Shown one piece after another: positions 25,464 to 40,887 of a stretch of 64,000 nucleotides of DNA (positions are counted from its first letter, which is position 1; each line of letters begins with the position of its first letter). Source of the stretch: Pseudomonadota bacterium (lineage in GTDB: Bacteria; Desulfobacterota; Desulfobulbia; Desulfobulbales; SURF-16); contig JAHILF010000164.1 of assembly GCA_018897105.1 (NCBI GenBank), forward strand, positions 1 to 64,000. The letters are read 5' to 3'. The position numbers and the translations under genes were made by a program. The notes beneath the pieces were generated by a model. It was not told where the DNA came from and did no database searches. It saw only the letters and a list, made by a program, of their open reading frames with translations.

Positions 25464-26939
25464 TCAAGGCTGAGAAGAACTTTTGACTTCCGGCCATGGT
25501 AGAAAATAAATAAGAGCCATGGCCGGAAGTGAAAAGACGAAGCTGATGCCGAAAAAGTAAGCATAGCCGAACCATTCAACCAGAAATCCGCTGAAAGAAC
25601 CCGCGTACAACCCGGCAACGCTCATCAGGCCGGTGCCGATGGCATAGTGCGCCGCCTTGAAATCCCCTTTGCATAAACCCATCAGAAAAGTCATGAGCAC
25701 TGCTGTGCCCAGACCTCCGGCCAGATAATCAAAAGCAGCCACGGCACAGGCAAATAGTATATTTGTCGTTGTATCCGCCGGCACACCGCCTGATGCGTGC
25801 GAACCATAACGCAGCAGATGGAATGCCAGCAGCATGTAAGCCAGATTGGTCAGATTCTGGGCCAGCAGAAAGGGCCAGATCATTTTCTGCAGACCTTTTC
25901 TGGCAATAAGCCATCCCCCTGCCATGGCACCGATTATAGAGCATGGCAGCCCCACCGCACCTGTGATCCATCCATAATGCTCCTTCAGGCCGGCATCAAT
26001 AAAAAAAGGACCCGCCATGGAGGAAAGCATGAATTCACCCACCCGGAGACAGATAATAAACAGAATAATAACGGTAATTTTATCCCGATCAATAAACGAC
26101 AGAAAGGAGCGGGCAAAAATGGAATCAGGACGATTCCTGATACCGGAGAGGAGCCTGTTGCGCATGGGGACGAGCAGCAGCAGCGAGAACAGCAGCAGAA
26201 TGCCGACCAGATTCGAGAACGGAAAGGTCGATAGTTGCGCACTGTTTTTATACCAGACGGTACACGCTGCGAGAAAAACGAATGCGATAACCGTTATCAG
26301 GACAAAAGGCCGGGTGAAAACCTGCGCCATCAGCTGCCTGATTGACTCTTTTGCCTGCTCGCAGCGGGGGAGGAGGATAAGATGAAAAAGAAAGAGCAGT
26401 CCAAGGACCAGGGCAGCCAGGCCAAAGGCCCATACCCATCCTATGCGCGAGCCGATGGTGACAATCACACCGCTGCCGAACATCATGGCAATGCGATAGG
26501 CCATTACCCGGTAGCCGACGAACCGGGCCTGTTCTTCGACCGTTAAGGCCTCCAGATAATAGCCGTCTATTGCGGTATCGTGGCTTGCGGCAAAAAAAGA
26601 GGCAAGAAAAAAAAGCAGGGCAATAACCGGCAGAGCCCAGGAATACTGGGTCAACAAGGCAATGAGGACAAAAAAACAGACAAGAAGTCCCTGGGTGATG
26701 AGCAGCCAGCTGCGCTTGGTGCCGAATGAATCCAGATAAGGAGCCCATAAAAATTTAACTATCCAGGGCAACCCGTAAAGAGAGGTCAGTCCGGTGGCCT
26801 CCAGGCTCACGCCGCTGGCCCGGAAAAAGAAGGTGGACAGCGTCCTGATCAGGATGTACGGCAAACCTTCGGCAAAATAGGTGGTAAAGGCCCAGATAAG
26901 CGGGGGAGCGGATTTTTTGCCGGTCGGATCCTGATTCAC
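25464..26939 (-). CDS. AmpG-like major facilitator transporter
   Basis: Inner-membrane protein of 491 aa with about 12-14 hydrophobic segments. The N-terminal [22 protein letters not shown], the [19 protein letters not shown] motif and [15 protein letters not shown] match the AmpG/acetyl-CoA transporter branch of the major facilitator superfamily. AmpG carries muropeptides for cell-wall recycling; the substrate here is not certain. The GTG start overlaps the dxs stop by three bases, so translation is probably coupled. It is the last gene of the xseB-ispA-dxs operon. Confidence 0.85.
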
Positions 26940-28822
26940 TTGCCGACAAGTTCTAAGGCGCTATTGATAATGGCAGGGGTGTCTATTTTATTATTATGGC
27001 GCAGAATCTCCTGACTGCCATGTTCAACGAATCGGTCGGCAATACCGAGAATACGGACAGGAATATTGACAATCCCCCTTCTGGCCAGCAGCTCAAGCAC
27101 CGCACTGCCGAATCCGCCTTTTTTCACATTGTCTTCCACGGTGACAACCTTGCCGGTCTTAACTGCCCACTCGGTGATCAGATCACCATCCAGGGGATTG
27201 ATAAACCTGGGATTGATGACCGCCGCGCTGATGCCGATTTTCCGCAGACCCTCTGCCGCTTCAAGGGCGGGATAAACCCGGTTGCCCACCGGCAGCAGCA
27301 GGACATCGCTGCCTTCCCGCAGGAGCTCTCCCTTGCCGAACGGCAGTTTCTGCAGATCACTGGTCAATTCCACGCCTTCGCCATTTCCCCGGCTGTAGCG
27401 CACGGCAGTTGGACAGGGCATGAAGATGGCAGTATAGAGCATGTGACGCAGCTCGTCCTCATCCTTGGGAGCCATGAGCACCATATTAGGGATATAGCGC
27501 AGAAAGGAGATATCAAAAACCCCATGATGGGTAGGCCCGTCATCGCCCACCACCCCTCCCCGGTCGATGGCAAAGGTGACGGGAAGATTGGGAATACAGA
27601 CATCGTGGATAATCTGGTCAAGCGCCCGTTGCATGAAAGTGGAATAAATCGCCACCACCGGCAGAATTCCCTCGGTTGCCAGACCGGCGGCAAAGGTCAC
27701 CGCGTGTTGTTCCGCAATGCCCACATCAAAAAAACGGTCTGGGAACTGCTCGGAAAATTTCACCAGGCCGGTGCCGGCCGGCATGGCTGCGGTAATGGCC
27801 GCGATTCGCGGGTCTTTTCTGGCGATCTCCACAATGGTATCGCCGAAAACCTTGGTATAGGAAGGAGCAGTTGACGGGGCAGGGAGCGAAGCCCCGGTGG
27901 CGATATCAAATGGACCCACCCCGTGATAAGCACCGGGATTTTTTTCTGCCGGGCCATACCCTTTGCCCTTGGTGGTAATGACATGAATGAGAACTGGGCC
28001 AGAGGTGAAATCCCGCACATTTCTGAAGGTCTGCACCAGATTTTCGAGTTTGTGGCCGGGAATGGGGCCGATGTATTCAAACTTGAGGGCCTCAAAAAGC
28101 ATACCGGGAGTGAAGAATCCCTTCAGACTCTCCTCGCTTTTTTTCAGCACCTGCAGGATGTTTTCCCCGACATTGGCGAAATGCTTGAGAAACTGGCTCA
28201 GGTCCTGCTTGGCCCGCACCATGGCCCGACCGGTCAGCTTTCTGCTCAAAAAACTCGACAGGGCGCCGACGTTGGGCGAAATGGACATCTCATTGTCATT
28301 GAGCACGACAATCAGGTCTTTGTCCAGGTGCCCGGCCTGGTTTAAGGCCTCGAAGGCCATGCCGCCGGTCATGGAGCCATCGCCGATCACGGCGATGGCC
28401 TTATGGGTGCCACCTTTTAGAAAATTGGCCATCGTAATGCCCAGGGCGGCGGATATGGAGGTGCTGCTGTGGCCGGTGTCAAAGGCATCATAGATGCTCT
28501 CCTCCCGCTTCGGGAAGCCGCTGATGCCCTGATACTGGCGCAGGGTATGAAACCGGTCGCGCCGGCCGGTTATCAGCTTGTGGGTATAGGACTGGTGGCC
28601 CACATCCCATATCAGCTTGTCTTCCGGGGTGTTAAATACATAATGCAGGGCCAGGGTCAACTCCACCACGCCGAGACATGGAGCAAGATGACCGCCCACC
28701 CGGGAAACGGTTTGAATAATTTCCTGGCGAATCTCCCTGGCAAGTAGGGGAAGATCTTCTTCCGCAAGCTTTCTGAGATCAGTCGGGGAGTCGATTGTCG
28801 GGAGGATTCTGGAGTTTTCCAT
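26936..28822 (-). CDS. dxs: 1-deoxy-D-xylulose-5-phosphate synthase
   Basis: First enzyme of the MEP isoprenoid pathway, joining pyruvate and glyceraldehyde 3-phosphate with thiamine diphosphate. The TPP/metal motif GDGSMTGG (147-154) to N175 is present, as are [10 protein letters not shown] (73-82) and, in the middle domain, [16 protein letters not shown] and [15 protein letters not shown]. Its 628 residues match the family. It lies 11 bases after ispA and overlaps the transporter gene. IspH, the last enzyme of the pathway, is encoded at 38 kb. Confidence 0.97.
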
Positions 28823-28833
28823 AGAAATAATCG

Positions 28834-29724
28834 CTATCTCTTTCTGTAATAGATATACCTGGCCAATTCGCGCAAGGGGTCTGCCTGGTTATCGAAATTT
28901 ATCAGTGAATCAATCGCTCCTTCCACTGCAGCTTTGGCCATCTCCCGGGTTTTTTCAACGCCGAAGAAAGAAGGATAGGTGGCCTTGTCAAGTTTGGCAT
29001 CAGAACCGACCGCCTTGCCGAGCTGCTCCGCAGTGCCCTCCACATTAAGGAGATCATCGACAATCTGGAAAGCCAGGCCGATCTGTTTCCCATAGGTGGT
29101 GAGTGCCGCAAACTGTTCATCCGTGGCGTTGCCGATTACGGCGCCGGTCTGCACAGCTGCGGTGATCAATGCCCCGGTTTTACAGCTGTGCAGATACTGT
29201 AATGTCTCGAAACTGATCTTTTGCCCTTCTGATTTGATATCCAGGGACTGACCACCAACCATGCCGAGTGGGCCGATGGCCCTGGCGATAATGGAAACGA
29301 TGCGCAGCTGATCCTCGCTTTTCAGGCCGCAGGTCAGAATGGGCGCCGACAGCAGTTCAAAGGCATAGGTGAGCAGACTGTCCCCGGCCAGAATTGCCTC
29401 CGCCTCACCGAAGACCTTGTGATTGGTCGGCTTTCCCCGGCGCAGATCATCATTATCCATGGCCGGCAGATCATCATGAATCAGGGAATAGGTATGAATG
29501 CACTCCAGACTGCAGGCCAGCCGCAGATAAGGTGAGGGGTCAACGTGCAATGCCTCGCTTACGGCCAGGCAAAGAACCGGCCGGATGCGCTTGCCACCGG
29601 CAAACAGGGAATAGCGCATAGCCTTGACATGATGGTCGAGCAGCCCTTCGGGTTGCAACATGAAGGATTCAAGGGCTTCTTCGACCTGGATTCGTTTTTT
29701 TTCCAAATAAGCTTTCAGATCCAC
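28834..29724 (-). CDS. ispA: Geranyl/farnesyl diphosphate synthase
   Basis: Prenyl chain-elongating enzyme making C10-C20 diphosphates. GGKRIRP (43-49) and the first Asp-rich motif DDLPAMDND (84-92) are intact. The second reads [12 protein letters not shown], with Asn in place of the usual third Asp. Product length is likely C15 or C20, not provable here. GTG at 29724 directly follows the xseB stop codon and is preceded by GAGGA, so the two are coupled. Confidence 0.94.
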
Positions 29725-37256: not shown

Positions 37257-37982
37257 ATGTCTTTTAAGCATATCGGTTCAGCGTCATACTCCATAGACCA
37301 ATACCTGAAGTATTTCTATGATATTGCCGTGGAGTGCCCATATGGTATGCCCCAGAAGGCAATTTACCGGCAACAGCAGTTTGTCTCGCTACCAGATGAT
37401 CTATTCGGAAATTTTCTGGAGGCAGGCTTCCGGAGAAACGGCAATACGATCTACACCATGGTCTGCCCGAACTGCCGGAAGTGCATCCCTATCAGAATCG
37501 ACTCCGGAGAGTTTATCCCCAACAGAAATCAAAAGAGGGTTCTCCGCAGAAATGAGGATCTGACCATTTCCATGGGGCCGCTGAAGATTACCGAGGAAAA
37601 ACTCTTATTATGCGGCAGCTTTCTCAAAGAGCGTTTCCCGGTGAAGGGCAACTCGCCGGTGGGCTATTACGGCACCTTTTTCGCCAACTCCATCACCAAC
37701 ACGGTTGAGGTTGAGTATCGGTACGAAGAGAAGCTCATCGGTGTGGGCATTGTCGATATCGGCTGTGAATGGGTGAATGCTGTCTATTTTTATTTTGATC
37801 CCAGCGAAAAAGGCCGCAGTCTCGGGACCTTTAATATTTTGCACCTCATCAATCTATGCCGGAAAAACAACATCAGCAATGTCTATCTCGGTTATCTCAT
37901 CCGCGAGGTCCGGGCCATGCGGTATAAGGAAAATTTCAAACCCCATTTCGTCCTGCAAGACGGGGTATGGGTCAAGTCATAG
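37257..37982 (+). CDS. bpt: Aspartate/glutamate leucyltransferase (Bpt/ATE family)
   Basis: 241-residue aminoacyl-tRNA-protein transferase adding Leu (or Arg) to the N-terminus of proteins, marking them for ClpS/ClpAP. Diagnostic parts are ECPYGMPQKAIYRQQQF, the Cys pair in CPNCRKCIPIRID, KRVLRRNEDL, YYGTFFANS and SEKGRSLGTFNILHLI. Sequence length matches the bacterial Bpt group. Whether the transferred residue is Leu or Arg cannot be read here. It is separated by three bases from ispH-ubiA. Confidence 0.9.
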   Translation: MSFKHIGSASYSIDQYLKYFYDIAVECPYGMPQKAIYRQQQFVSLPDDLFGNFLEAGFRRNGNTIYTMVCPNCRKCIPIRIDSGEFIPNRNQKRVLRRNEDLTISMGPLKITEEKLLLCGSFLKERFPVKGNSPVGYYGTFFANSITNTVEVEYRYEEKLIGVGIVDIGCEWVNAVYFYFDPSEKGRSLGTFNILHLINLCRKNNISNVYLGYLIREVRAMRYKENFKPHFVLQDGVWVKS

Positions 37983-37985
37983 GCG

Positions 37986-39716
37986 ATGAAAGTCATTTTA
38001 GCCAAAAAGGCCGGTTTCTGCATGGGAGTACGCCGGGCGGTTGAAACAACCATGGAAACCGTGCACAAGGGGCAAGGGAAAATTGTCACTTTCGGCCCGC
38101 TCATCCATAATCCCCAGGTTCTCAGCCTGCTGAAAGCGCAGGGCGTTGACATTCTCAACGAAATCCCGGAGAAATTATCCGGCACGGTCATCATCAGGGC
38201 TCATGGCGTGCCGCCTTCCCAGAAAGAGCAACTTCTTGCCTCCGGGGCTGATGTGAAAGATGCCACCTGTCCCAGGGTGATGAAAGTCCAGGCCATCATC
38301 AAAAAATACAGGGATCAGCATTACACCACCATCATCATCGGCGACAAGAACCATGCTGAAGTCGTTGGTCTCATGGGTTATGCTGAGCCCTCTGTGCATG
38401 TGGTCAGCGATGAAAACGATGTAAAAAACCTCAAGATTGACGAGCCCTATATCATCGTCAGCCAGACGACCCAGGATGAGGTGGCCTTTAACTTTCTCAG
38501 CAACAAAATAATCGAACTTTTTCCTGACGGGAAAATTTTTAATACCATCTGCGACTCCACCCACAAAAGGCAGGAGGAGGTAAGAAATCTCTGTAAAAAG
38601 GTACAGGCCATTGTGGTGGTGGGAGGACGCGGCAGCGCCAACACCCAGAGACTGGGGCAGATTGCTGAAGAGATGGGTTGCCAGGTGTTCATGGCCGAAA
38701 CCCAGGAGGATCTCGATTTCGGGGTTATCTCCAAATTTGATCGCGTCGGCGTTACTGCCGGAGCATCAACCCCTACCTGGATGATCAACCGAATCATGCG
38801 GATATTGGAGTCCTGTCCCGGCAAGAGCGACAGTATTTTCACCTTTTTTCTCTTCACTTTTCTCCGTTCGGTGATGGCCTCCAATCTCTTTATCAGCCTG
38901 GCAGGTGGGCTGCTTGCCCTGATCTGCAGCATTCTGCAGAATTCCCCACCTGAGGCCAGGGATTTTTTTGTCGCCTTCGGCTATCTCTTTGCCATTCATA
39001 ATCTGAACCGCTACGCCGATTACAAGACAAAAAAACTCAATGACCCCAGACAGGAGGCCTTCTGGCGCAATTTCTCATTGCCTCTTCTTGTCATGTCCGG
39101 GTTTGCCCTGGCCCTGTCGATCTATTTTGCCCTGCAGGAAGGAACAGTACAATTCGTCCTGCTGCTTATCATGAGTCTGCTCGGCATCCTCTATAGTGTG
39201 CCCTTCATCCCCAAGGTGATTACCAACGTCATCCGGGTACGCAAACTCAAAGAGATCCCAGGATCGAAAACGTTCTTTGTCGCCCTGGCCTGGTCCTTTG
39301 TGACGGTGCTGATCCCGGCCCTGAACAGAAACGCCTTTTCACCGGAGACCTTATCCGTGTTTCTGCTTATCGGGCTCTTTGTCTTTATCCGGACGGTGCT
39401 CTTTGATGTCTTTGACGTTCAGGGAGACATGATTGCCGGCAAGGAAACCCTGCCGGTCTGTATCGGGGAAAAAAGATCGATCCGTCTGCTCTACTTCAGT
39501 ATGGCCATATTGGCGGCATTGCTTATTTTATTCACAACAATCGGCATGACGGCAAAATGCGGTATCTGGATGCTTGGTCCTGTTCTGTCGCTGCTGCTGC
39601 TCACCCGTCTCTATGAGAAGAAAAAGCTGGTTCAGGGCATCCGCCTTGAATTCTGGCTTGAAAGCCATTTTTATCTGATTGCAGCCTTTGTCTGGTTGGG
39701 ATCTACCCTTTCATAA
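37986..39716 (+). CDS. ispH: IspH fused to a UbiA-family prenyltransferase
   Basis: A single 576-residue frame with two complete enzymes. Residues 1-280 are IspH (HMBPP reductase): Fe-S cysteines C12, C95 and C189, LIHNPQV, RAHGVPP, HAEVVG and GSANTQRL. Residues 281-576 are a membrane part with about eight hydrophobic segments and both UbiA Asp motifs: NRYADYKTKKLNDP (341-354) and DVFDVQGDMIAGKETLPV (474-491). No stop, frameshift or internal ribosome site separates them. IspH makes IPP and DMAPP, while UbiA enzymes attach longer prenyl chains to aromatic or other acceptors. The acceptor is not known. The fusion would tether IspH to the inner membrane. Confidence 0.93.
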   Translation: MKVILAKKAGFCMGVRRAVETTMETVHKGQGKIVTFGPLIHNPQVLSLLKAQGVDILNEIPEKLSGTVIIRAHGVPPSQKEQLLASGADVKDATCPRVMKVQAIIKKYRDQHYTTIIIGDKNHAEVVGLMGYAEPSVHVVSDENDVKNLKIDEPYIIVSQTTQDEVAFNFLSNKIIELFPDGKIFNTICDSTHKRQEEVRNLCKKVQAIVVVGGRGSANTQRLGQIAEEMGCQVFMAETQEDLDFGVISKFDRVGVTAGASTPTWMINRIMRILESCPGKSDSIFTFFLFTFLRSVMASNLFISLAGGLLALICSILQNSPPEARDFFVAFGYLFAIHNLNRYADYKTKKLNDPRQEAFWRNFSLPLLVMSGFALALSIYFALQEGTVQFVLLLIMSLLGILYSVPFIPKVITNVIRVRKLKEIPGSKTFFVALAWSFVTVLIPALNRNAFSPETLSVFLLIGLFVFIRTVLFDVFDVQGDMIAGKETLPVCIGEKRSIRLLYFSMAILAALLILFTTIGMTAKCGIWMLGPVLSLLLLTRLYEKKKLVQGIRLEFWLESHFYLIAAFVWLGSTLS

Positions 39717-39756: not shown

Positions 39757-40887
39757 ATGCTGGGCTGGTTTAAAAAGAAGCTGAAAATCGGCATAAAAGA
39801 AGAGCCTGTTGCCAAAGAGAGCAGCAAAGTGGAACAGGCACCTATTGCCGTCGAGAAAACCATCGAAAAAGCCGTTGAGAAACTCCCTGCGGCAAAACCG
39901 GCAAAGGTGCAGGAAACTCCGGCACCAAAAGCTAACAGTATTCTTCATGAGGATGTGGGGGTGCTATTCAACCGGCTCAAGGAGAGGCTCACGAAAACGA
40001 GAAGCTCTTTTGTCAGCCGGGTTGATGAACTCTTTCTGGGCAAAAAGATAATTGACCCAGAGCTCCTTGATGATCTGGAAGAAATTCTCATAACAGCTGA
40101 CCTCGGCGCAGGCACCACCCAGGAACTCATGGACAGCGCCCGGGAAAAACTCAAAAGAAATGAACTCCGCGATCCTCTTGCCTTAAAAAAGGTACTGAAG
40201 GAGAAAATCGCAGGTTTTCTTCACAGCTCGGACGCGCCGGCCGAACTGGTGATGCCCAAGGAAGGCCCTTTTGTCATCATGGTTGTCGGGGTAAATGGCG
40301 TCGGCAAGACAACGACCATCGGCAAGATGGCCCATAAATTTGTCAAATCCGGCCAATCGGTACTGCTGGTTGCAGGGGATACCTTTCGGGCCGCCGCCGT
40401 AGAACAGCTGCAGATCTGGGGGGAGCGGATCGGGGTGGATGTCATTTCCCAAAAGTCCGGGGCTGATCCCTCGGCAGTTGTTTTTGATGCCCTGGAGCAC
40501 GCCAGAAAAAAGAAAACCGATGTGGTCATTGTTGATACCGCCGGCAGGCTTCATACCAAAGTCAACCTCATGGAAGAACTGAAAAAAATCAAACGGGTCA
40601 TGGAAAAAAAACTTGCCGGCGCTCCCCATGAGGTGATGCTGGTTATCGATGCCACCACCGGACAAAACGGCATCTCCCAGGCACGACTGTTCGGTGAGGC
40701 GGTTGATGTCACCGGTCTTACCCTGACAAAGCTCGACGGAACCGCCAAAGGCGGGATCGTGGTCAATATCTGCCGTGAATTCAACATCCCCATCCGTTTT
40801 ATCGGCATAGGCGAACAGATGAACGACTTGCGGGATTTTGACGCCGATGAATTTGTCGAGGCACTCTTTGCAGAGAATGATTCATGA
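39757..40887 (+). CDS. ftsY: Signal recognition particle receptor FtsY
   Basis: SRP receptor GTPase of 376 aa delivering membrane proteins to the translocon. An acidic, Lys/Glu/Ala-rich A domain (about 1-65) precedes the N domain and the G domain with GVNGVGKT (178-185), DTAGR (260-264) and TKLDG (324-328). GAGG precedes the start. The last four bases overlap the start of the J-domain gene (ATGA), suggesting coupled translation. Confidence 0.97.

Follow-up and report, generated by a model that had tools for sequence, protein, structure and literature searches.

The window analysed here is a stretch of 64,000 nucleotides. By the open reading frame analysis, positions 37986-39716 on the forward strand form one intact 576-codon frame with an ATG start, and it is near certain that its product is the organism's only IspH, with a UbiA-fold membrane domain at its C-terminus. 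The features of the frame and of its surroundings are as follows.

26936..28822, reverse strand: dxs (TIGR00204, 844 bits)
28834..29724, reverse strand: ispA-type farnesyl diphosphate synthase (NF045485, 364 bits, cut-off 275)
37257..37982, forward strand: upstream neighbour, arginyltransferase family, separated from ispH-ubiA by 3 bases (NF002346, 267 bits, cut-off 170)
37986..38810, forward strand: IspH (LytB) domain, residues 1-275 (Pfam PF02401, TIGR00216, match to 3dnf, single copy in the genome)
38811..38837, forward strand: short junction, residues ~276-284, without a linker domain (predicted model)
38838..39713, forward strand: UbiA-fold membrane domain, residues ~285-576 (Pfam PF01040, model alignment to 4od4)
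39006..39047, forward strand: incomplete Asp-rich motif 1, N341 R Y A D345 Y K T K349 K L N D P354
39192..39194, forward strand: Y403, equivalent of the catalytic Tyr Y139 of AfUbiA (Tyr in 130 of 133 fusions)
39405..39428, forward strand: Asp-rich motif 2, D474 V F D477 V Q G D481
39757..40887, forward strand: ftsY, the downstream neighbour (TIGR00064, 367 bits, cut-off 260.7, and synteny)

IspH (4-hydroxy-3-methylbut-2-enyl diphosphate reductase) catalyses the final step in the making of isoprenoid precursors; it is an essential enzyme and a drug target, and it is usually regarded as soluble. In this frame the Pfam LYTB match spans residues 3-274 (E 2e-85), the IspH half scores 271.5 bits against the TIGR00216 cut-off of 187.85, and a Pfam UbiA match follows at residues 333-543 (42.4 bits, cut-off 34.2). 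The first-pass annotation, made from the letters alone, was right to read both parts in one 576-codon frame. It was also right about C12, C95, C189 and the His residues of IspH, as the three cluster cysteines C12, C95 and C189 and the His/Glu active-site residues H41, H73, H123 and E125 were all present and were invariant in the 133 distinct fusions used for all residue counts here, with the Thermodesulfobacteria set aside. A LytB search of the 4.95-Mb assembly, rated 100% complete, gave this single match and no second, stand-alone ispH.

The predicted model of the whole chain had a mean pLDDT of 87.5 and a pTM of 0.81. In this model the IspH helix stops at residue 276 and the first UbiA helix starts at residue 284; the first half matched the IspH structure 3dnf (E 3e-20) and the second half matched 4od4, 4tq3 and 7bpu. 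The UbiA half modelled alone (pLDDT 85) matched 4od4, which is ApUbiA, with a Z of 20.0 over 257 residues at 3.1 A, and the helical soluble prenyl synthases began below it, at Z 14.5, in the same comparison. The predicted fold of the membrane half is that of UbiA, and together with the Pfam match over the cut-off it places this half in the UbiA superfamily. A comparison with the characterised clades, as the first-pass annotation had proposed, brought no closer assignment: no NCBIfam cut-off for MqnP, MenA, heme O synthase or DGGGP synthase was reached by the UbiA half. The best score was 46.8 against 238 (PRK13591), and the models for GGGP geranylgeranyltransferase (33 against 353) and DHNA polyprenyltransferase (24.5 against 264) also stayed below their cut-offs, while no heme O or 4-hydroxybenzoate model appeared among the NCBIfam matches at E up to 1. 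A search of solved structures with the single UbiA-half sequence found no match, and the search with its profile found a weak match to DGGGP synthase.

The frame was unbroken in relatives of the same genus at 96, 84, 83 and 80% identity and across the order at 50-72%, and it was also present in named MAGs and in genomes of other orders. Within the genus, dN/dS was ~0.03-0.15 in the IspH part and ~0.07-0.17 in the membrane part, the more distant pairs being near saturation at silent sites; such values indicate that both halves are under purifying selection. A stop or frameshift hidden near 38820, which the first-pass annotation had kept in mind, is excluded because the frame is unbroken in the relatives and dN/dS is low in both halves. 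Its other reservation, that related genomes might hold two separate genes at this place, did not materialise: where IspH stands alone in sister genomes, the site holds no second gene, and the UbiA half is simply absent. One locus (L030, G022 contig 32), in which the fusion is split into frames of 430 and 217 aa by either a sequencing error or a true split, is the kind of case that would speak for two genes joined by an assembly or frameshift artefact. Against it stands the recurrence of this single frame in well over 100 genomes, some of them assembled into one contig, and for this reason the frameshift or chimera explanation was rejected as hardly credible. Three full-length copies occurred in one genome (G471, contigs 123, 113 and 53), perhaps from mixed strains or contamination.

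A profile of the UbiA half matched 123 of the 295 sampled genomes of the phylum, 121 of them in frames of at least 440 aa; of the other two, one was a frame of 264 aa at the end of a contig and one a weak match of 305 aa. Two fusion-bearing genomes showed an extra weak stand-alone match. The UbiA half thus almost never occurs without IspH and is restricted to the cis arrangement. In the anammox order of Ca. Scalindua, 54 of 59 genomes gave a match, 50 of the 59 with the full length in one frame, so that the fusion is near-fixed there. As the fusion is present in this order and also in a Nitrospinota MAG (L067), it is not limited to sulfate reducers; among the papers searched, none reported an IspH fusion in anammox bacteria. 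The database check of the two-domain architecture and its spread, also proposed from the sequence at first pass, therefore found it in well over 100 genomes of several orders and phyla. Nine loci of the Thermodesulfobacterium/Caldimicrobium type (L073-L075, L077-L079, L081, L084 and L086) kept a C-terminal half of 250-280 residues that the UbiA-half profile did not match. This tail is membrane-like, and QxDG and a handful of further positions are all that is left in it.

Rao, O'Dowd, Li, Wang and Oldfield described IspH-UbiA hybrids in 2015 (Chem Sci, PMC4746011), with 47 sequences mainly from Desulfobacterales. They noted that the UbiA-like part was C-terminal and without an assigned function, that separate UbiA/MenA proteins were present in the same genomes, and that attempts at expression were mostly unsuccessful. 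They also proposed that IspH is localised at the membrane in the hybrids, with a local supply of IPP/DMAPP (PMC4746011). Among the papers searched, a single further one uses the term. The window protein is a single chain with IspH at the N-terminus and a UbiA-type domain at the C-terminus, as in this hybrid class. The observation is real, is ordinary for the lineage, and concerns an architecture already published. It follows that the earlier remark that IspH is known to be fused with S1 domains and not with UbiA is outdated (PMC4746011), and the idea that it accompanied is essentially that of Rao et al. What is new compared with 2015 is the wider spread, the correction of motif 1, and evidence against conservation of the membrane half as a canonical prenyltransferase.

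The consensus of motif 1 in UbiA prenyltransferases is NDxxDxxxD (PMC4106721). In the window protein the Asp after the Asn is replaced by R342 and the last Asp by K349, where N341 corresponds to N68, D345 to D72 and K349 to D76 of AfUbiA. Of the two Asp-rich motifs that the first-pass annotation had seen, motif 2 is complete (D477xxxD481), and motif 1 (NRYADYKTK) lacks the DxxxD pattern. An Arg at the first Asp position of motif 1 is also seen in MqnP, while the substitution at K349 is not. It is reported that two Mg2+ ions are held in AfUbiA by N68, D72, D198 and D202, and that D76 is too distant for direct binding (PMC4106721). GPP binding was lost in four of six alanine mutants, N68A and D72A being two of them, and was 45-fold weaker in D198A and 21-fold weaker in D202A. 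EcMenA lost its function when the residues equivalent to N68, D72, D198, D202 and Y139 were changed (PMC4106721). The window copy has all four direct Mg2+ ligands (N341, D345, D477 and D481) and also Y403. The nearest stand-alone relative, L176 (G063:C6:208078-208845), comes from a genome in which the fusion is present too. Its motifs are canonical, and this points to a canonical enzyme as the ancestor of the fused domain.

Across the 133 fusions these positions differed in their conservation. The equivalents of N68, Y139 and D202 were kept in 123, 130 and 130 sequences, respectively. The D72 equivalent was Asp in 85 and Glu in 3, the D198 equivalent (D477) was Asp in 85 and Glu in 18, and acidic residues at the D76 equivalent were scattered. 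All five residues (the equivalents of N68, D72, Y139, D198 and D202) were strictly kept in 43 of the fusions; the D72 or the D198 equivalent was non-acidic in 72, and neither the D72 nor the D76 equivalent was acidic in 32. The strict pattern NxxxDxxxD was found in 7 of the 133 fusions, compared with all 16 stand-alone MqnP proteins of the window's order, which served as the control. Both Asp residues of motif 1 were missing in 15 of the 15 Scalindua-order fusions examined; the loci noted for this order are L063-L069, L248-L253 and L261-L269. On a tree of the IspH domain, the state changed at least 17 times at the D72 position and at least 10 times at D198, counts that are rough because the tree is a quick FastTree one with many weak forks. 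N341, Y403, W436, R469 and D481 were nearly invariant across the fusions. At the position of AfUbiA K146 the loop of the model has low confidence and the alignment shows no conservation. Taken together, these counts indicate repeated loss of catalytic residues from the membrane half across the family.

The UbiA half has also disappeared as a whole in sister lineages. Twelve lone IspH sequences of the window's order nest among fused ones on the IspH-domain tree, which implies 3 state changes, although the starred branches alone force only 1. At one lone-ispH locus (L059) the neighbour genes are the same and the UbiA half is missing in place, with no UbiA remnant there by tblastn. Neither the UbiA-half profile nor tblastn found a relocated stand-alone UbiA half in the lone-IspH relatives. 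The Pfam UbiA proteins of these genomes gave no match to the UbiA-half profile, and the best one in each is MqnP-like. Since there is no remnant and no copy elsewhere, the UbiA half is dispensable in these lineages and was not relocated. It was deleted in place within the window's order, probably more than once, with IspH retained.

The neighbours of the gene are arginyltransferase, ftsY and DjlA-like genes, and the order with the arginyltransferase-family gene upstream is kept in close relatives. Judged by first residues only, the neighbours elsewhere are RadC-like and deaminase-like (Thermodesulfobacteria) or nitroreductase-like (Scalindua). No isoprenoid gene that could hint at the acceptor was recognised among the neighbours of the fusion; Dxs and IspA do lie elsewhere in the window, and the TIGR00204 and NF045485 matches bore out their earlier naming. 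The genome encodes two further UbiA proteins, one MqnP-like and one EboC-like. The UbiA protein at C17 scored over the cut-off of TIGR01475 (UbiA-like polyprenyltransferase), with MqnP models among the next best, and adjoins frames that, judged by eye, are UbiX-like and UbiE-like. As a separate MqnP-like protein exists in the genome, the menaquinone step is probably covered elsewhere. The EboC-like protein reached 240.7 of 250 bits. On contig 177 of G000 (L033), an EboC-like UbiA protein adjoins a sugar-phosphate-isomerase-like gene, which suggests an ebo cluster in this genome.

We give a probability of about 0.5 to the reading in which the UbiA half serves IspH, only in cis, as an accessory membrane domain and is not a canonical Mg2+-dependent prenyltransferase conserved for one product. 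The IspH half would be active at the cytoplasmic face, and the UbiA half would hold it at the membrane where prenyl-using pathways draw IPP and DMAPP. The UbiA half may perhaps still bind a diphosphate ligand through N341, Y403, R469 and D481, and these residues with W436 form a putative ligand pocket. Several sequence features are consistent with an accessory role: the half is nearly confined to fusions, its motifs are eroded, it was lost in place, the Scalindua order keeps the fusion although the 15 examined there lack the motif 1 Asp residues, and its dN/dS of ~0.07-0.17 points to constraint. Moreover, the eroded positions are those that matter for function in AfUbiA and EcMenA (PMC4106721). 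However, Y403 and all four direct Mg2+ ligands are present in the window copy, the residue lost at D76 is not a direct ligand, and the constancy of N341, Y403, W436, R469 and D481 exceeds the needs of an inert anchor. In one clade the D72 equivalent is Gly but the D76 equivalent is Asp; as this clade keeps D76, and as Asn or Glu can stand in for Asp as a metal ligand, metal binding may have shifted.

The same retained ligands and Tyr also speak for the view of Rao et al. and of the first-pass annotation, namely that the protein is truly bifunctional and its UbiA half an active prenyltransferase fed from prenyl diphosphates derived from local IPP/DMAPP. The predicted UbiA fold with its close match to the substrate-bound 4od5 and 4tq3, the canonical motifs of L176 and the Rosetta-stone argument (PMC4746011) lend it some weight. 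We nevertheless hold it as possible, above all for the window copy, but rather doubtful, as the metal ligands were altered many times across the family, the half was lost in sister lineages without replacement, and a separate MqnP-like protein probably serves menaquinone synthesis. UbiA enzymes usually take prenyl chains longer than IPP/DMAPP, and channelling from IspH would therefore be indirect. The earlier proposal divides into two parts: that the fusion would place IspH at the membrane is supported by the sequence, the recurrence and the two-domain model (pTM 0.81), whereas the coupling of precursor supply to an active prenyl transfer is weakened by the erosion of motif 1 and the loss of the half. 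By analogy, the UbiA half might instead be a pseudo-prenyltransferase that binds a membrane prenyl diphosphate or quinone and tunes or positions IspH in cis. The erosion of the catalytic motif with retained pocket residues would suit such a sensor, and the fold comparison also matched the UBIAD1-HMGCR complex (8djk, Z 15.8); UBIAD1 binding is reported to inhibit HMGCR degradation (PMC9314443). As the likeness would be one of analogy and the half was lost in several lineages, we regard a sensor as distinctly unlikely. If it were one, a UbiA-fold partner would control a bacterial isoprenoid-precursor enzyme in the way that UBIAD1 controls HMG-CoA reductase. The fusion is common across one phylum and close to fixed in the anammox order, yet its membrane half erodes and sometimes vanishes. 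The question of 2015 on the role of the UbiA half thus becomes simply testable, as one of enzyme, anchor or sensor.

Compared with known systems, the window protein shares with the hybrids of Rao et al. the order of domains and the presence of separate UbiA proteins in the genome. Two DXXXD repeats were reported for that class, while motif 1 is incomplete in the window protein and in most of the family; the hybrids were described as confined to sulfate reducers (PMC4746011), and anammox planctomycetes and one Nitrospinota MAG are now added. The IspH-RPS1 fusions also carry a C-terminal extension on IspH in anaerobes, although their partner is a set of ribosomal S1 repeats and not a membrane domain. 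ApUbiA and AfUbiA (4od5, 4tq3) share the fold, and their N68, D72, D198, D202 and Y139 have counterparts in the window copy; on the other hand, identity is 13-16%, the counterpart of D76 is Lys349, the window domain is fused to IspH, and their Mg2+ ligands are not conserved across the fusion family. Digeranylgeranylglyceryl phosphate synthase (6m31/7bpu), an archaeal lipid enzyme, is the solved structure that matches best by sequence, in the region of motif 2, but at an E of only 1e-5 and over the second half of the domain without motif 1. The MqnP and EboC proteins of the same genome belong to the UbiA superfamily as well, but both keep NxxxDxxxD and are separate genes, and MqnP serves menaquinone. 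In UBIAD1-HMGCR, a UbiA-fold protein is likewise physically paired with an enzyme of the precursor pathway, but that system belongs to the mevalonate pathway of eukaryotes and consists of two proteins, so that it may serve as an analogy only.
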